Source: a virus
IMG/VR virus record: IMGVR_UViG_3300023104_000013
Span: 1 to 37,967 of that record
Strand: one strand, 5' to 3'
Length of the DNA stretch: 37,967 nucleotides
Shown here one piece after another: positions 14,714 to 37,967 of this stretch. Positions within the stretch are counted from its first letter, which is position 1. Each line of letters starts with the position of its first letter. The position numbers and the translations under genes are program-made. A model generated the notes under the pieces. The model had not been told where the DNA came from and did no database searches. It saw only the letters and a program-made list of their open reading frames with translations.

Positions 14714-15535
14714 ATGTCATACACACCAAAGACACCTAATGGGCAGGCAACCATGGCGAATAGCCAGCCAGTTGTCATTGCCTCCGATCAATCAACGCTT
14801 AAAACAAAACTAGCAACAGATATAAACCCTACTACAGGGAATATTACAACCGCTACATCAGTTGTTACAGCAACCAATCTATCTGGAGCTGGAGCTGCTA
14901 CTATTCAAATATCGGGCACATATGTTGGTGTTAACGTTACATTTGAAGCAACAGTAGATGGTACTATCTGGATACCTATTTTTGCCCAACAAGCATCTAG
15001 TGCAACGCCTACAGTGGTTTCGACAACTGGCGTACTTACAACCAACTCAACAAATATTTGGAATGTTTCTCCCCTTCTAGGTCAGCAACAAATTCGTGTC
15101 CGTGCTACTGCGTGGACATCAGGCACAGCAGTTGTTATCATTGAACCATCGGCACAGTTTACTCAGTATCAAGTCAACGTAGCGACTATGCCAACCACTA
15201 CCGTTACGGGTACGGTTGCAACCACGCAATCAACCAGTCCTTGGGTGACTCGTGAAGCGGTGGCAACAACACCGACCATTACCCAGGTAACCCCAGCAAC
15301 CACCAGTACAACGCTTAAAGCCCTGAACGCTAGCCGTAAAGCCATCATCCTTGTAAACGGTGGGACAAGCGATTGTTACGTAGCCTATGGAGCAACGGCG
15401 TCACTGACAGCTTATACATTCTTACTACCTTCCCTCGCCACCACCACAATCCGTGGCGAAGAATACTCCGGTGTGATAACAGGTATTTGGAGTGCAACCG
15501 GTGGCAATAATATGCAAGTGACGGAGATCGTCTAA
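14714..15535 (+). CDS. Virion surface/fibre-associated protein, 273 aa
   Basis: The start (YTPKTPNGQATMANSQPVVI, then ASDQS) is a phrase seen in many phage structural proteins. A beta-sandwich-like segment follows (IQISGTYVGVNVTFEATVDG, then W and VRATAWTSGTAVV) and a C-terminal beta domain. Binding to carbohydrate or to the fibre tip is plausible. AGGAG precedes ATG; TAATG coupling to the next gene. Confidence 0.65.
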   Translation: MSYTPKTPNGQATMANSQPVVIASDQSTLKTKLATDINPTTGNITTATSVVTATNLSGAGAATIQISGTYVGVNVTFEATVDGTIWIPIFAQQASSATPTVVSTTGVLTTNSTNIWNVSPLLGQQQIRVRATAWTSGTAVVIIEPSAQFTQYQVNVATMPTTTVTGTVATTQSTSPWVTREAVATTPTITQVTPATTSTTLKALNASRKAIILVNGGTSDCYVAYGATASLTAYTFLLPSLATTTIRGEEYSGVITGIWSATGGNNMQVTEIV

Positions 15536-16053
15536 TGCCTGCAATTAACTCACCGACCCCAGACGCTACTACTATAACGAAAGGTAAAATCCAATTAGCA
15601 GGTGACATTGGCGGAACTGCGGCAGCTCCTACTGTAGTTCGTGTCACCCTTAACCCATATAAGTTTCGCGTCTACCGCACAGCAGCTTTTAGTACACCGA
15701 ACAATACAACCGGAAAACTGCTATTTGATACTAAATCGTTCGATACAGGGACCAACTTTGATGTGGTAACCAATAACCGCTTTACGACACCTGTCGCTGG
15801 CTTCTACCACTTTGATGCTAAAGTATCGTATGCCAACCAAAACGCCTATCTTATGATTTATGTGAATGGCGTTGAGGTCTCACGTGGCCCACAGATCGTT
15901 GGCACAGCTGTACTAGGGGCAATGGTTTCAGACACCTTACAGCTGGCAGCCAGTGACTACGTTGAAGTCTTCTTGTTTTCAGCCGCTGTTTCGACCGGTT
16001 CGACAGGCTCGAACAATACTTATTTCTCAGGATTCTTAATAAGCTTAACGTAA
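15535..16053 (+). CDS. Receptor-binding protein with C1q/TNF-like domain, 172 aa
   Basis: The N-terminal 40 residues (TITKGKIQLAGDIGGTAAAP) are a common tail-fibre lead-in. Residues about 45-172 match the C1q/TNF jelly-roll pattern: VYRTAAFSTPNNT..., 'FDVVTNNRFTTPVAGFYHFD', 'AYLMIYVNGVEVSRG', 'LQLAASDYVEVFLFS'. Such trimers bind surface ligands at virion tips. The domain family is common in phages of Gram-positive hosts. I infer the receptor-binding role. Confidence 0.75.
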   Translation: MPAINSPTPDATTITKGKIQLAGDIGGTAAAPTVVRVTLNPYKFRVYRTAAFSTPNNTTGKLLFDTKSFDTGTNFDVVTNNRFTTPVAGFYHFDAKVSYANQNAYLMIYVNGVEVSRGPQIVGTAVLGAMVSDTLQLAASDYVEVFLFSAAVSTGSTGSNNTYFSGFLISLT

Positions 16054-26602: not shown

Positions 26603-27043
26603 ATGAAGAGCAAGTTTATTACTCTCGCGGCGATAATGCTTGTTCTTTTAAATATAGGTTCTTTTACATACGCAATGCAAAGTGCTAAAGAAGTAAACCG
26701 ATTAAATACGGTTGTTTCATCTCTTCCAACTGAGCCAATCGTATATGTCGGTAAGGACGGGCAAACCCCAAAACTAGGTATTGATTACTTTATACCAAAA
26801 AACGGTAAAGACGGTGTAAACTCAATTAGCTTTAGTAATACCGTAACTGAAACGCTTATTAAAGAAGTACCGATTGTCGGTCCAGCTGGTGAAAACGGAG
26901 TGAATGGAGTTGACGCGTCAGAGCTACAATTACGGGTGAACGAACAAACTAAAGATGTCGAAAAGAAATATTCGACTGATAGATACTGGGAAGTTCTAAT
27001 ACCGTGTGGAAGTTTGATGAAGGAATGCCCTTATGCAAACTAA
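26603..27043 (+). CDS. Membrane-anchored or secreted protein with collagen-like motifs, 146 aa
   Basis: I use ATG 26603, just after the previous stop; TTG 26597 is less likely. Hydrophobic N-terminal helix (KFITLAAIMLVLLNIGSFTY) is an uncleaved anchor or signal peptide. The body has GKDGQTP, NGKDGVN, VGPAGENGVNGVDA, i.e. G-x-y steps like a short collagen helix, and two C-terminal cysteines (CGSLMKECPYAN) that could form a disulfide. It begins the lysis-end cluster. Function unknown. Confidence 0.55.
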   Translation: MKSKFITLAAIMLVLLNIGSFTYAMQSAKEVNRLNTVVSSLPTEPIVYVGKDGQTPKLGIDYFIPKNGKDGVNSISFSNTVTETLIKEVPIVGPAGENGVNGVDASELQLRVNEQTKDVEKKYSTDRYWEVLIPCGSLMKECPYAN

Positions 27044-27368
27044 CACCGACAAAGACTTCCAAGACGTCCGTGATAAGGTCAACCAGATCGACCAACGTGT
27101 TAACGAAAAAATACTTCCAGCTTTAACTGATATTCAAGTGACACTCGCAAGTATGTCGTTCGTCAAAGTCAGTGAATATACAGACGATCGAGAAAAAGAT
27201 GCAAAGAAACATGAGAAGTTTGAAAAGTTTATGATTGATGCACAACCAGCGGTGAAGTTCTTTAATGCTCTTAACTCTCGTTGGACACAAGTATTAATCG
27301 GTGCTATCATTGCCGGTGCTATCTTCGCTGTTGTCTCTCAAATCCCTAACCTAGGAGTAGGTAAATGA
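27033..27368 (+). CDS. Holin-like coiled-coil/TM protein (XhlA-type), 111 aa
   Basis: A soluble coiled-coil N-terminal part (FQDVRDKVNQIDQRVNEKIL) and one C-terminal membrane helix (WTQVLIGAIIAGAIFAVVSQ). This is the layout of XhlA-like holin partners found near endolysin genes. Together with the r1t-type holin downstream it may time lysis. Overlaps the preceding gene by 11 bases and the next by 4. Confidence 0.6.
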   Translation: MQTNTDKDFQDVRDKVNQIDQRVNEKILPALTDIQVTLASMSFVKVSEYTDDREKDAKKHEKFEKFMIDAQPAVKFFNALNSRWTQVLIGAIIAGAIFAVVSQIPNLGVGK

Positions 27369-32506: not shown

Positions 32507-33175
32507 ATGGAACTAGATAAATTAGCACCAGCACTTGTAGGCCTTCAGGCTGACCTTACGCCTGTAACTAAGTCTGCGGTCAACCCGTTCTTTAAAAGCC
32601 ACTACGCGCCGTTACCTGAGGTTATGGAGGCAGTTCAACCATTATTAGCTAAGCACAAGCTAGCAATCACACAGTTCCTAAGTCATTTAGACGGTCAAAG
32701 CGCCATGCGAACGATCTTGCTCCACGAGTCAGGGCAGTACATTGAAGACACCCAACCACTACTACTCGTAAAGAATGATCCTCAAAGTCAAGGTAGCGCC
32801 ACCACGTATGCCCGACGCTACGGTGTGATGTCAGTTCTCGGTGTTGTGGCAGATGACGATGACGATGGTAACAAAGCGACTCAAGCCCGCCAATCAGCCC
32901 CTAAAGAGGTTATAACGAAACGCTCAGACACTACTAATACAGCAGAAGCGTTTGGAGAAGAACAAGAGACAGTATTAGCACGGGCAAAGAAAGCGATTAA
33001 TAAAGAACTTGAAGCTCAAGACTACCTATTGCCACTCCAAAAGACAGTGTTTATTAACAAAGTGTTGAAAAAGAATACCATTGATACGATCTCAGATGCA
33101 GAGTTGGTCGATGATGCGCTTTACAACGAAAAGGATATTCCTTCACCACTTGATAGGGGAGAACAGTATGAATAA
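32507..33175 (+). CDS. erf: ERF-family single-strand annealing protein
   Basis: 222 aa. ERF superfamily signs: 'VNPFFKSHYAPLPEVMEAVQ' near residue 25, 'LAITQFLS' and 'DPQSQGSATTYARRYGVMSV', then LGVVADDDDDGN, the characteristic GSa.TYarRY..... D.DDDgN run. ERF proteins anneal complementary single strands and can help circularise phage genomes by recombination. GGAGA precedes ATG. The acidic C-terminal part is typical. Works with the NinG-like nuclease downstream. Confidence 0.9.
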   Translation: MELDKLAPALVGLQADLTPVTKSAVNPFFKSHYAPLPEVMEAVQPLLAKHKLAITQFLSHLDGQSAMRTILLHESGQYIEDTQPLLLVKNDPQSQGSATTYARRYGVMSVLGVVADDDDDGNKATQARQSAPKEVITKRSDTTNTAEAFGEEQETVLARAKKAINKELEAQDYLLPLQKTVFINKVLKKNTIDTISDAELVDDALYNEKDIPSPLDRGEQYE

Positions 33176-34595: not shown

Positions 34596-34957
34596 TGGGT
34601 ATTAATAAGGATTTAGGACTACCTTTTGGCGTTGGTATGCAACGGGTCGCGTTATGTTTTGATATTGACGGCACTCTAATTGATGGCGATCACAAGTATG
34701 TCAGCATGATAAAAGTATTAGTAGTACTCTCTGAACAAAATTGGAAGAACGTACGTATCATTGTATGGAGCGGTGGTGGGCGTGAATATGCGGAGACAAT
34801 TGTACGTAGACTAGGACTTGATGCCTTAAAGAATCTTCAGGTCATGGGTAAGTTGCAGTACAGAGAACTGGTCGATAGCGGATATAAAATCGTAGCTTTC
34901 GACGACGTCCAAGACACCCGACTCGGTGATGTTAACTTAATTGTTAGAAACAAATGA
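34595..34957 (+). CDS. HAD-superfamily phosphatase-like protein
   Basis: 120 aa. Motif I 'LCFDIDGTLIDGD' (DxDGT/L, residues about 18-30), motif II-like 'IIVWSGGGREYAETIVRRLG' and a C-terminal 'KIVAFDDVQDTRLGDVNLIV' with Asp residues of motif IV. Short, without a cap domain, as in polynucleotide-kinase 3'-phosphatase-type phage HADs. The substrate could be a nucleotide or a nucleic-acid end, given the recombination genes around it. GGAGAG precedes ATG 34595; a start at 34637 is possible. Confidence 0.8.
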   Translation: MGINKDLGLPFGVGMQRVALCFDIDGTLIDGDHKYVSMIKVLVVLSEQNWKNVRIIVWSGGGREYAETIVRRLGLDALKNLQVMGKLQYRELVDSGYKIVAFDDVQDTRLGDVNLIVRNK

Positions 34958-35469
34958 TAAAAAGTAACCCTTGCAAAGAGTGTGGATCAATCTACCACAG
35001 CGCGATGTATCACAAACCACGCAAAGAGATTAAACGCTCACCTATCAAACAAAAGACCGAAATCATCCCCGTCAAAGGACGTATTAAACGACCACGAAAG
35101 AAGACAGTCACGCGATCACAGTTAGTTAAGAAATTAGATAGCGTGTTTTCCCAGTACATCCGTCAAAGGGATGATCTCAAGGGATGCATTACGTGTGGAG
35201 TAGTTAAGCCTGTATCAGAGATGCAAAACTGTCATTTCTACTCACGGGGACGCTTACCGACACGCTGGGATGAAACTAATTGCCACAGTGGCTGCTATCG
35301 TTGCAATGTCCTTTTAAAGGGCAACTACATCAACTATACAAAGTATATGATTGACCGATACGGTCGCCAATATGTTGATGAATTGGAAATAAAGTCACGC
35401 TCTGATATTAAGATATCATCTGTTGAGCTAAAGGAGATGATAGAAAAGTACAGCAAACTCTTGACATAG
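34954..35469 (+). CDS. ninG: NinG/Rap-like recombination endonuclease
   Basis: 171 aa, ATGA overlap with the HAD gene. Zinc site CKECG near the start; then 'RSQLVKKLDSVFSQYIRQRD' and 'CITCGVVKPVSEMQNCHFYS' followed by 'RWDETNCHSGCYRCNVLLKG', the NinG pattern (kLd..fS.yIR.RD...C.tCg......m..gHf..R.....RwD..N.h..C..CN). Lambda NinG (Rap) resolves recombination intermediates; with ERF it forms a recombination pair. The stop codon region overlaps the -35 of the next promoter. Confidence 0.9.
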   Translation: MIKSNPCKECGSIYHSAMYHKPRKEIKRSPIKQKTEIIPVKGRIKRPRKKTVTRSQLVKKLDSVFSQYIRQRDDLKGCITCGVVKPVSEMQNCHFYSRGRLPTRWDETNCHSGCYRCNVLLKGNYINYTKYMIDRYGRQYVDELEIKSRSDIKISSVELKEMIEKYSKLLT

Positions 35470-35489: not shown

Positions 35490-35522
35490 TACTACATAAC
35501 CAAATTGAAAGGTTATACGAAA

Positions 35523-35805
35523 TGAAGCAACGGTGGCACTCCAGTACAGATCGTCATAGACATCTCAACCACCAAGCTTCACCATTAACAAACAAGATCG
35601 GTAGCCCCTACCTGAACAACGTACCTACTAAGGAGTGCAAGCCTCCCACGAGATAGCGTCAAGGTGTTTGGGTAAAGGCTACCGATACACAAACATTAAA
35701 AATTGAGCGTAGTAGTGCTGGTAACTATATCTAACGGTTGCGTTGGGTTTATCCCTGCAAAATCGCGGCTCGTGACAAACATATTGCTAGCACCATACGC
35801 TCAAT
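35523..35805 (+). ncRNA. Three-domain structured RNA upstream of lysozyme gene (block C)
   Basis: Three domains in a row, each closed by perfect stems. Domain 1: TGAAGC/GCTTCA with inner GGTGG/CCACC (35523-35581). Domain 2: ATCGGTAGCC/GGCTACCGAT (35597-35606/35677-35686), with GGAG/CTCC inside. Domain 3: ATTGAGCGTA/TACGCTCAAT plus inner GTGCT/AGCAC (35702-35711, 35715-35719/35789-35793, 35796-35805), holding AACG-gttg-CGTT and GGG/CCC hairpins. A 44-codon frame (35522-35656) runs through domains 1-2 but has no clear protein character. It begins right after the 35461 promoter, so it is a long structured leader or a separate RNA. Confidence 0.65.
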
Positions 35806-35825
35806 ACACAAACAGAAAGAAAATC

Positions 35826-36451
35826 ATGACAAAAAAAGAAGCAGCAATTAAAGACATCAAACAAGCAAAGACAATCCGCGTTAAGACACTGGTTATTAGC
35901 CTCTTGGTTGCAGCAGCAATCCTCGGAAGCTTTATCGGTGGCTGGATGACACGCAGTAACTTTGACGCAACCATTAAAGCGCAAGTCAGCTCACAAGTAC
36001 GTGAACTAACTGCGTCAAAAAACTAAGCCCGTTACAGACTGTCAGTACCGAGCAAATACCAAAGACAGTAGAACAAGCACCTGAACAAGTTCAAGCCCCA
36101 CAGGCAGCCTTAGAACCGGTTGTGAGCCATACCAGCGAGGATGTAGCACAACCAAGTAGCTGTAACATAGTAAATAGCTACGATTGGGACGTCAGAGTCG
36201 CCCGAGCGATCTGCTTAGCGGAAAGTTCAGGCAACCAAAACGCCGTCGGAGATGACTACGTTATTAATGGCTTACACGCTGCCAGTTGTGGACTGTTTCA
36301 GATTAGAACACTCAAAGGTCGTCCAAGTTGTGAAGAACTGAAAGACCCCTCGACAAATGTTGCTTGGGCATATAAAGTTTCTAATAACGGGACAAATTGG
36401 AAACCGTGGTCAGTTTTTAACAACGGTAAGTATCTTAAATATATGGAATAA
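35826..36451 (+). CDS. Membrane-anchored lysozyme/transglycosylase made by -1 frameshift
   Basis: Frame 0 from ATG 35826 gives 66 aa with one membrane helix (residues about 19-40, VKTLVISLLVAAAILGSFIG) and stops at TAA 36024. Immediately before the stop is the slippery heptamer A AAA AAC (36017-36023). The -1 frame is open from there to TGA-free end 36451, adding 142 aa: a Pro/Gln/Glu linker (VEQAPEQVQAPQAALEPV) and an SLT/lysozyme-like domain with CLAESSGNQNAVG (Glu near 133) and CGLFQIRT. Frame -1 alone has no start with a ribosome site. Product 208 aa: anchor, linker, wall hydrolase. An earlier in-frame TTG at 35703 is unlikely. Confidence 0.7.
36017..36069 (+). promoter_or_regulatory. Programmed -1 frameshift signal
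   Basis: X XXY YYZ heptamer A AAA AAC at 36017-36023, directly followed by TAA. A possible stimulating stem ACTGTC/GACAGT lies at 36038-36043/36064-36069, 14 bases downstream, a little further than usual. No Shine-Dalgarno-like stimulator is seen upstream. A single-base error in the 6-A run would give the same picture. Confidence 0.6.
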
Positions 36452-36636
36452 AGTTGCCCGATGCCAAAGTATGGTGATGTGAATTGTATCCGAAAGGGCT
36501 TGCTCATCACCTAACCTTTGGCCAAGAGTCCGTAACCACAGGAACCTGTTGGTTGGCAACTGGAACCGTTTCGCTAGAAGCACGTGTGTAACGTTCACAT
36601 GGACAATAAGCCTGCCGTAAGGTAGTTGCTTCTAGC
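36452..36636 (+). ncRNA. Two-domain structured RNA after lysozyme gene (block D)
   Basis: Domain 1 is a three-way junction: AGTTGCC/GGCAACT (36452-36458/36555-36561) encloses a long arm GCCAAAG/CTTTGGC (36463-36469/36516-36522) plus GGTGATG/CATCACC (36473-36479/36505-36511), and a second arm AACCA/TGGTT (36534-36538/36550-36554). Domain 2: GCTAGAAGCA/TGCTTCTAGC (36573-36582/36627-36636) encloses CGTGTG/CACATG and CTGCC-gtaa-GGTAG, the last with a GNRA loop. Every stem is perfect or has one G-U. It starts one base after the stop codon. No known class recognised. Confidence 0.7.
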
Positions 36637-36665
36637 TTTCCAAGATACATAAACAGTCGTATAAG
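36637..36665 (+). promoter_or_regulatory. Candidate promoter for the 36680 gene
   Basis: -35 TTTCCA (36637-36642), 17-bp spacer, -10 TATAAG (36660-36665), starting right at the end of structured block D. No CATATG dyad. Weak consensus match; may be fortuitous. Confidence 0.35.
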
Positions 36666-36679
36666 ACATAGAAGGCGTT

Positions 36680-36985
36680 ATGCCGGTGTTGAGTTTCAAC
36701 TCGCATGCTGTTAGAAAGAAATTAAAGGTTGCAGCAGCGCTTTATAAATTTTCTAGCGTAATATTGCTCGTCACTGGCATAATACTTTCTATACGAACCA
36801 TACCATTAATAAAGGAAAGTAAGATGCACTACGCAATTAAGAAAACAGTTACAGATTTACCATGGCGATATGGCGTATACGTGAACCATGGACTGGTTTC
36901 ACTAACGTTCACTAAATGGGGTGCAGAACGTTTAATTAAACGCATGAAAGCCAACAAAGGAAAGAAGTGGACATATAATGACTGA
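36680..36985 (+). CDS. Membrane-anchored small basic protein with internal start, 101 / 53 aa
   Basis: ATG 36680 (AGAAGG upstream) gives 101 aa: basic N-terminus, one membrane helix (residues about 18-42, VAAALYKFSSVILLVTGIIL), then a basic domain ending KANKGKKWTYND. An internal ATG at 36824 has an excellent ribosome site (AAGGAAAG) and would give the basic domain alone (53 aa). Both forms may be made. The C-terminal 29 residues are repeated at the left edge of the window. Function unknown. Confidence 0.6.
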   Translation: MPVLSFNSHAVRKKLKVAAALYKFSSVILLVTGIILSIRTIPLIKESKMHYAIKKTVTDLPWRYGVYVNHGLVSLTFTKWGAERLIKRMKANKGKKWTYND

Positions 36986-37021
36986 TCTCGAACCCACTAA
37001 CTTGCTTGACGAAGCCAACGA
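36895..37021. repeat. 127-bp exact direct repeat, right copy
   Basis: Identical to bases 1-127. Beyond 37021 the sequence is a diverged version of 128-1627 with some genes missing or replaced. It marks the join of a circular or circularly permuted genome, or a duplicated module. Confidence 0.85.
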
Positions 37022-37106
37022 AGATCTGAGACTCTACAGACTTCATCGTGTTGGTCGTCAGCACATGAGTTTTAATGAGCTGTGGCTCGAATGGATTCAC
37101 CTTTAA
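36978..37106 (+). CDS. Small hypothetical protein, 42 aa (copy B)
   Basis: Counterpart of the 84-212 gene, differing at 3 of 42 residues (LRLY for LELY; MSFNELW for MTFTELW). Codon changes between copies are mostly silent elsewhere, which supports selection on the protein. A hairpin-plus-T-run and a promoter follow as in copy A. Confidence 0.65.
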   Translation: MTDLEPTNLLDEANEDLRLYRLHRVGRQHMSFNELWLEWIHL

Positions 37107-37130
37107 CCGGGTGTTTCTTTTAATTAGGGC

Positions 37131-37159
37131 TTGCATCCTCATGCCATATGCGCTATAAT
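37131..37159 (+). promoter_or_regulatory. Promoter with operator-like palindrome (copy B)
   Basis: -35 TTGCAT (37131-37136), 17-bp spacer with TGCCATATGCGC, -10 TATAAT (37154-37159). The -35 and the first bases of the spacer differ from copy A, while the palindrome and -10 are unchanged, which argues that the palindrome is under selection. Leader hairpin TATAAC/GTTATA is kept. Confidence 0.8.
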
Positions 37160-37184
37160 GAGGTTATAACGGAAAGGTTATACG

Positions 37185-37304
37185 ATGGAAACACAATACC
37201 TAGATCAAGAAGCACAGTACGAACAAGAACGATTGAACGATGAGCTACGTGAAGCGAGGGCACACATCCGAGCATTTGTTGTTGCAGGAGAATGCGATGA
37301 ATAA
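37185..37304 (+). CDS. Small acidic hypothetical protein, 39 aa (copy B)
   Basis: Counterpart of 517-636; identical for the first 24 residues, then varied (ending VVAGECDE). Here it is the first gene of the transcript. Overlaps the next gene by 8 bases. Confidence 0.65.
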   Translation: METQYLDQEAQYEQERLNDELREARAHIRAFVVAGECDE

Positions 37305-37452
37305 CGAGAAAGCGATCGAACTAGTAAAAGAACTAAAATCTTTGGCAACCGATAGTGCTGCTGAGATCACGAATATCTTACTCCGATTACAAGACTATCA
37401 ACACTACCTTGAAGAAGAACAGAAACAATTAGACGAGGACTTTAAGTCATGA
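37297..37452 (+). CDS. Small helical protein ending LDEDFKS, 51 aa (copy B)
   Basis: ATG 37297 has AGGAG 6-7 bases upstream; a longer in-frame version from 37240 reads through the previous gene. It is similar in its C-terminal two thirds to the 65-aa protein at 800-997 (TDS..EITNI..R...Y..YL), but shorter and more diverged than the genes around it, so it evolves faster or came by exchange. Confidence 0.6.
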   Translation: MNNEKAIELVKELKSLATDSAAEITNILLRLQDYQHYLEEEQKQLDEDFKS

Positions 37453-37697
37453 ACCAATCCACTCAACTACTCAAGATGCTGCGTAAGGCTGGTAAGCATG
37501 GTGTTGAGAACTACAAATTTCCACAGCAAAACATTCTTCGTTACAGTGCCCGGATCGGTGATCTACGCTCAGAAGGCTTTAATATCTACTGCGAACGCGT
37601 CTTTGTAAAGGGACGAGCCACCGGAACATTCCGTTACTTCTTAGACGAACCAAAGCATATTAAGCTGAGTTTCAACCCATTTAGGAAGAAAGCATGA
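37449..37697 (+). CDS. Small winged-helix DNA-binding protein, 82 aa (copy B)
   Basis: About 91% identical to 994-1242. The changes fall mainly in the recognition-helix region (RYSARIGDLRSEGF against RYSGRIAELRAEGF), which could alter DNA specificity. Strong conservation across diverged copies supports a core role. Confidence 0.7.
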   Translation: MNQSTQLLKMLRKAGKHGVENYKFPQQNILRYSARIGDLRSEGFNIYCERVFVKGRATGTFRYFLDEPKHIKLSFNPFRKKA

Positions 37698-37849
37698 ACA
37701 ACATCGAAGAAGACGACATCGGTATGATGACCAGTATGAAGCTATGGGACAAGAAGCTTACACGACTGTCAGATGAATTACTCATCTACGTCCAGCAACG
37801 AGCCTATTCAATACTAGAATCACGAAACGGAGAGAACTATGAAAAGTAA
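37694..37849 (+). CDS. Small acidic hypothetical protein, 51 aa
   Basis: ATGA overlap start. Occupies the place that the HTH-like gene (1239-1400) has in copy A but is unrelated to it: NNIEEDDIGMMTSMKLWDKK then LTRLSDELLIYVQQRAYSIL. Helical, acidic. Gene swap between variants. Confidence 0.6.
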   Translation: MNNIEEDDIGMMTSMKLWDKKLTRLSDELLIYVQQRAYSILESRNGENYEK

Positions 37850-37931
37850 GATATTTGACACATTAGCGATTAGTGGCTGGGCAATCCTTGGACTGTTCAT
37901 CGTTACGGGCTTTATTATGGGGGCACTGTAA
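37839..37931 (+). CDS. Single-helix membrane peptide, 30 aa (copy B)
   Basis: Counterpart of 1535-1627 with two changes (IFDTLAISGW for IFNTLAYSGW). The membrane helix is unchanged. Overlaps the preceding gene by 11 bases and the next ATG by one. Confidence 0.6.
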   Translation: MKSKIFDTLAISGWAILGLFIVTGFIMGAL

Positions 37932-37967
37932 TGCCAACAGGACTAGACGAAACACTCGAGACATACC
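37931..37967 (+). CDS. Partial gene at window end
   Basis: ATG 37931 in a TAATG overlap; 12 codons visible (MPTGLDETLETY), no stop before the edge. It differs from the gene in the same position in copy A (1627), so a different but perhaps related small protein follows in this variant. Confidence 0.4.
   Translation, partial: MPTGLDETLETY

Follow-up and report, generated by a model that had tools for sequence, protein, structure and literature searches.

The two-frame locus and its predicted enzyme

The stretch of DNA studied here, referred to as the window throughout, is a virus record of 37,967 bases. It contains a short membrane-protein ORF that runs into a lysozyme-like reading frame shifted by -1. 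The following features describe the locus:

34954..35469, + strand: NinG homologue, upstream (Pfam PF05766, E=1e-22)
35826..36026, + strand: 0-frame ORF (66 aa), from ATG 35826 to the stop TAA at 36024-36026
36017..36023, + strand: slippery heptamer A_AAA_AAC, in register (X_XXY_YYZ) with the 0 frame
36023..36451, + strand: -1 frame extension, a Pro/Gln-rich linker and then the SLT_3 lysozyme domain
36122..36124, + strand: GTG, the sole in-frame codon at which a free lysozyme might start, leaving the domain whole
36188-36412, + strand: SLT_3 match within the -1 frame extension

The 0-frame product has a positively charged N-terminus, a single transmembrane (TM) helix with a peak hydropathy of 2.26 (19-residue span) and a short tail; its reading frame terminates with TCA AAA AAC TAA at 36015-36026. 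Following a TGA, the -1 frame is free of stops from 36005 up to its own stop, whose last base is 36451, and comprises 142 residues after the slip. ORF, heptamer and register were re-read from the sequence, and the original prediction, an anchored lysozyme made by -1 frameshifting, proved correct in its coordinates and its two-frame layout. It had also held that the -1 frame offers no usable start. GTG 36122 is in fact present; no Shine-Dalgarno-like sequence lies ahead of it, and judged by sequence its use as a start is unlikely.

Compared with Pfam SLT_3 (PF18896), the -1 product reaches 64 bits (E=1.9e-17) at a curated cut-off of 27, and a profile comparison links it to EtgA and to an insect lysozyme (about 8e-9). 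The glutamate of an A/C-E-S motif (E67 of the -1 product) is invariant in all 17 loci described below and, by analogy, may be the catalytic residue; the SLT/lysozyme-like domain with a plausible catalytic Glu that had been read from the window alone is borne out. Modelled with AlphaFold2 from a 17-row alignment, the -1 product reaches a mean pLDDT of 80.8, with block means of 82-95 across the domain. In Foldseek the model comes closest to c-type lysozymes (E 0.037, probability 1.00, TM about 0.5), which gives moderate support to a lysozyme-like fold. We regard the -1 product as a predicted muramidase of the SLT_3 / lysozyme fold.

Relatives, slip motif and predicted downstream pseudoknot

The first relative found, one virus represented by two contigs without a difference in the stretch read, shares 66% identity with the window protein across the domain and has the same layout; its junction differs, reading TCA AAA CAA TAA, and no ATG, GTG or TTG precedes the domain. 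Altogether, 16 distinct relatives were collected from phage contigs and from prophages of Patescibacteria-like genomes, giving 17 loci with the window (the window, L003, L004, L051, L054, L058, L061, L068, L069, L107, L109, L111, L112, L113, L115, L118 and L122). Every one of these diverged loci combines a short TM ORF with a lysozyme in the -1 frame relative to it, a recurrence in 16 further places that puts the layout beyond chance. Over the 30 codons that follow the TM stop, stops are absent from the -1 frame and number 44 and 28 in the two others. This openness is partly a product of how the loci were delimited, but the domain motif does not start until 27-57 codons past the TM stop.

Five of the two-frame loci reside in bacterial genomes that belong to a single class and are small (0.6-1.3 Mb). 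Ribosomal protein L30 was found in none of these five carrier genomes and L23 in all five; this pattern and the small genomes suggest to us that the class is Patescibacteria, probably Saccharimonadia. Among 393 genomes of the class, 16 gave matches: five with two frames, ten with a continuous TM-lysozyme frame and one of another kind. Prophages with the two-frame layout sit on a 165-kb contig and on one of 578 kb, the latter holding one of the five loci of this class. By eye we noticed that an ORF resembling a RecG C-terminus lies upstream in both L051 (153-761) and L061 (ahead of the anchor), where it possibly marks an integration site of these prophages. In a wider sample of the phylum, the newly inspected loci were all single-frame lysozymes. 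A DNA search of the phage collection returned no close relatives of the window, plasmids yielded none, and a scan with the anchor gave no match beyond the already known L113. At the protein level, the phage collection returned lysozymes of the virion or 'entry' kind and comparable genes, for the most part from actinophages, and some scans returned mostly unrelated tail lysozymes.

An in-register A_AAR (codon pairs NNA AAR) occurs in the shift window of 16 of the 17 members, against 7.35 expected from the remainder of the same TM ORFs, a count equalled in 0 of 200,000 simulations. The remaining member, L061, offers an in-register T_TTA_AAC. Of the forms seen, G_TYA_AAA is the most frequent, placed 0-5 codons ahead of the stop. 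Thus, the A AAA AAC heptamer is present and in register in the window as first described, and the search of related genomes recovered the two-frame layout, but what the relatives share is the tetramer A_AAA rather than the identical heptamer. Likewise, a slip exactly at the stop codon fits the window, but several relatives would slip a few codons earlier. In E. coli, AAR codons are shift-prone within heptamers, and A_AAA, assayed with the IS3 pseudoknot, ranks last of six active tetramers, which range from 0.26 to 5.6% (PMC4066793); output could consequently be low in the members that lack a heptamer.

The comparison adds a predicted pseudoknot that the earlier, single-sequence reading did not contain. 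Downstream of the slip site, 75-nt windows fold more stably than their shuffles, with a mean z of -1.20, against -0.15 in 102 control windows. Inspection suggested H-type pseudoknots, for which a search with stacking energies and shuffles was therefore written; slip positions had been assigned before this test, and stem-1 offsets of 3-9 nt were searched alike in members and shuffles. An H-type pseudoknot is possible just downstream in 13 of the 17 loci, in 11 of them without mismatch. At or below -18 kcal/mol and without mismatch, 11/17 members compare with 12/680 control windows. The combined Fisher p over all 17 is about 4e-18 with dinucleotide shuffles and 4e-13 with shuffles of the -1-frame codons. 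One stem-1 mismatch has to be admitted in the window (p=0.002) and in L003 (p=0.0013). The predicted elements in the window are:

36024..36029, + strand: spacer TAAGCC, 6 nt, containing the 0-frame stop
36030..36035, + strand: stem 1, 5' arm CGTTAC, with one T.C mismatch; geometry as in L122
36038..36043, + strand: stem 2, 5' arm ACTGTC
36045..36050, + strand: stem 1, 3' arm GTACCG
36064..36069, + strand: stem 2, 3' arm GACAGT

The pseudoknots of the window and L122 are identical in geometry. In eleven members the spacer is mostly 5-7 nt, stem 1 has 4-8 bp, loop 1 1-5 nt, stem 2 5-7 bp and loop 3 10-15 nt. Stem sequences are unrelated between members, and the pairing is kept. The same search gave no significant pseudoknot for L061, L068, L109 and L004. 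At L058 and L107, plain folding yields a nested hairpin that rivals the pseudoknot model, so that the region downstream of the slip site is structured and may form either. These two loci have homologous anchors, and their nested stems past the slip site resemble each other, but their lysozyme domains come from different branches.

Readings of the overlap

Taken together, these comparisons leave the frameshift interpretation of the window gene well supported. Very probably, we are dealing with one gene that yields two products, a bare anchor and an anchored lysozyme, by a -1 slip with the help of a pseudoknot. Ribosomes staying in frame would make the 66-residue membrane anchor. A minority, stalled by the H-type pseudoknot 6 nt downstream, would slip by -1 at A_AAA_AAC and produce a protein of 208 residues in which the same anchor is followed by the Pro/Gln-rich linker and an extracytoplasmic lysozyme. 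The fusion would be oriented with the N-terminus of its anchor inside and the lysozyme outside the cytoplasm, and the efficiency of slippage would fix the ratio of both products. The single-frame TM-lysozymes of the same class, the apparent exchange of modules at a constant frame relation and the lambda-like gene order, both described below, also speak for this reading.

Alternatively, the locus could hold two separate overlapping genes, a small membrane protein and a lysozyme translated from its own start (GTG 36122) or coupled to the upstream stop. Apart from the GTG of the window, this reading can draw on the start codons of the relatives, counted in all 17 loci between the point where the -1 frame opens and a fixed domain motif: 11 loci could start a free lysozyme, two of them with an ATG (L004, L107) and nine with a GTG or TTG but no ATG. 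These starts share no common position, however, 15 of the 17 members are without ATG, and six (L003, L054, L068, L069, L115, L122) contain no ATG, GTG or TTG before the domain at all. Homologues with a separate lysozyme start, which had been named as evidence against frameshifting, thus do not emerge as a pattern. Coupling of the ATGA type was rejected: where the TM ORF stops, the -1 frame reads ATA, GTA or CTA and never ATG, GTG or TTG. Moreover, separate genes would leave unexplained the enrichment of the slip motif, the pseudoknots and the stop-free linker upstream of the candidate starts. We consider this reading improbable.

Lower still in probability is transcriptional slippage, in which RNA polymerase would gain or lose an A on the A6 run such that some mRNAs encode a single-frame fusion. 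The window has its six As and L051 and L109 have seven, but the other 14 members have just 3-5 consecutive As at the site, too few for efficient transcriptional slippage, and this mechanism would not predict a downstream pseudoknot; on the sequences compared, it is unlikely. Finally, despite the homopolymer at the junction, a sequencing error (a wrong A count was a danger that the original prediction itself had named) can be excluded on sequence grounds and a decayed gene split by an indel has next to no chance, since the same layout stands in 16 other loci with A-runs of 3-7, including the prophages on the two long contigs, and the lysozyme domains are conserved.

Within the preferred reading, a -1 frameshift, both halves of the gene appear to have histories of their own. 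The lysozyme-domain tree implies four changes between the one- and two-frame states, at least three of which are forced by well supported branches. By BLAST, the window anchor is nearest to L113 (49% identity) and the window lysozyme to L003 (66%), while the L058 anchor is nearest to L107 and the L058 lysozyme to L051. Since the nearest relatives of anchor and lysozyme differ, the modules appear, as far as sequence similarity tells, to have been exchanged between phages and reshuffled with the frame relation kept constant. As a tentative and rather speculative extension, anchor, slip site and pseudoknot might form a recoding module that is joined to interchangeable lysozymes in phages of Patescibacteria, in which the bare anchor would act as a pinholin- or antiholin-like partner and slippage would set the lysis clock.

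Genomic setting, known systems and meaning

Besides NinG, an ERF gene at 32507 precedes the anchor-lysozyme gene. Past the redundant ends of the record follow small ORFs, the terminase small subunit (5389) and terminase (6258), and further on a weak portal match (8588) and the major head protein (11933). The resulting order, ERF, NinG, anchor-lysozyme gene, terminase, is lambda-like; nin region, lysozyme and terminase is the order of the lambda lysis genes. This favors, without proving, a role in host lysis.

Several further observations were made in the window. Its ends (1-1629 and 36895-37933) repeat each other in four blocks of 82-95% identity, giving the impression of a roughly 36.9-kb genome that was joined to itself through a strain variant. 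The non-coding region upstream of the anchor ORF (35522-35820) folds far better than its shuffles (z -5.85) into two long hairpins, each followed by ATACACAAACA, and has no Rfam match. The region downstream of the lysozyme (36452-36830) is strongly structured as well (z -4.74), with a similar ATACATAAACA at 36645. Rfam and ARAGORN gave no match within the window. A C1q domain match (15535-16053, E 5.4e-8) lies near virion genes. At 27033-27368, a 111-residue protein with a C-terminal TM helix has the look of an XhlA-type holin; PHROGs gave no match to it.

It is conceivable, though on balance we doubt it, that the frameshift is real and its product serves purposes other than lysis at the end of infection, such as wall remodelling, protection of the prophage against other phages, or action on neighbouring cells. 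Such an alternative bears on function and leaves the frameshift itself untouched. In its favor, the gene is surrounded by recombination genes (ERF, NinG, YqaJ- and NinB-like neighbours), the possible holin recognized by eye is encoded elsewhere, and genomes of the same class also contain TM-lysozymes in a single frame. The match to the gene order of the lambda lysis region speaks against it, as does the fact that no other lysozyme was recognized among the ORFs scanned.

In tailed phages, programmed frameshifting has mainly been described for tail chaperones and a few structural proteins. SAR endolysins (Lyz of phage P1, R of phage 21) are single-frame lysozymes whose N-terminal TM segment contains many small residues. 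The predicted fusion may be similar, with a single Ala/Gly-containing TM helix ahead of its lysozyme, but it would draw on two frames. The single-frame TM-lysozymes of the same host class likewise combine an N-terminal TM helix with a homologous lysozyme domain; unlike the two-frame genes, they have a continuous frame, no recoding and a short linker.

With the tail assembly chaperones (G/GT of lambda, 17.5/17.5* of SPP1), the gene would share the -1 slip and an N-terminus common to both products (PMC6316719), but it belongs to another gene class and genome region, its extension is an enzyme and its 0-frame product a bare anchor. The IS3 / IS911 insertion sequences likewise combine an in-register slip tetramer or heptamer with a stimulatory structure, a pseudoknot in IS3, to produce an extended fusion (PMC4066793). 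There the product is a transposase, whereas here it would be a membrane-anchored phage lysozyme, with G_TYA_AAA as the usual motif.

The original prediction had supposed that frameshifting had not been described for a lysozyme. This stands for the anchored form: a literature search, with the original paper on the Lactococcus lysin outside its reach, found no frameshifted, membrane-anchored phage lysozyme. It does not stand for lysins in general, as the PRFect paper counts lysins among known frameshifted genes, citing for Lactococcus a lysin that consists of two overlapping genes (PMC10885494); the likeness to the present gene lies in this listing. By tblastn against 50,697 annotated phage records, matches were named virion, entry or other enzymes; the surroundings of one were inspected. 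Frameshifting by -1 with a pseudoknot is already known; within the literature searched, a phage lysozyme predicted to be anchored in this way is what appears to be new.

If this is true, slippage would set how much of a wall-cutting enzyme is held at the membrane, and it would do so in phages whose hosts are small-genomed bacteria, a group with poorly explored viruses. Annotation can easily overlook such enzymes, as gene callers would yield a short hypothetical protein and a poorly started lysozyme, and the frameshift idea is directly testable with standard reporters.
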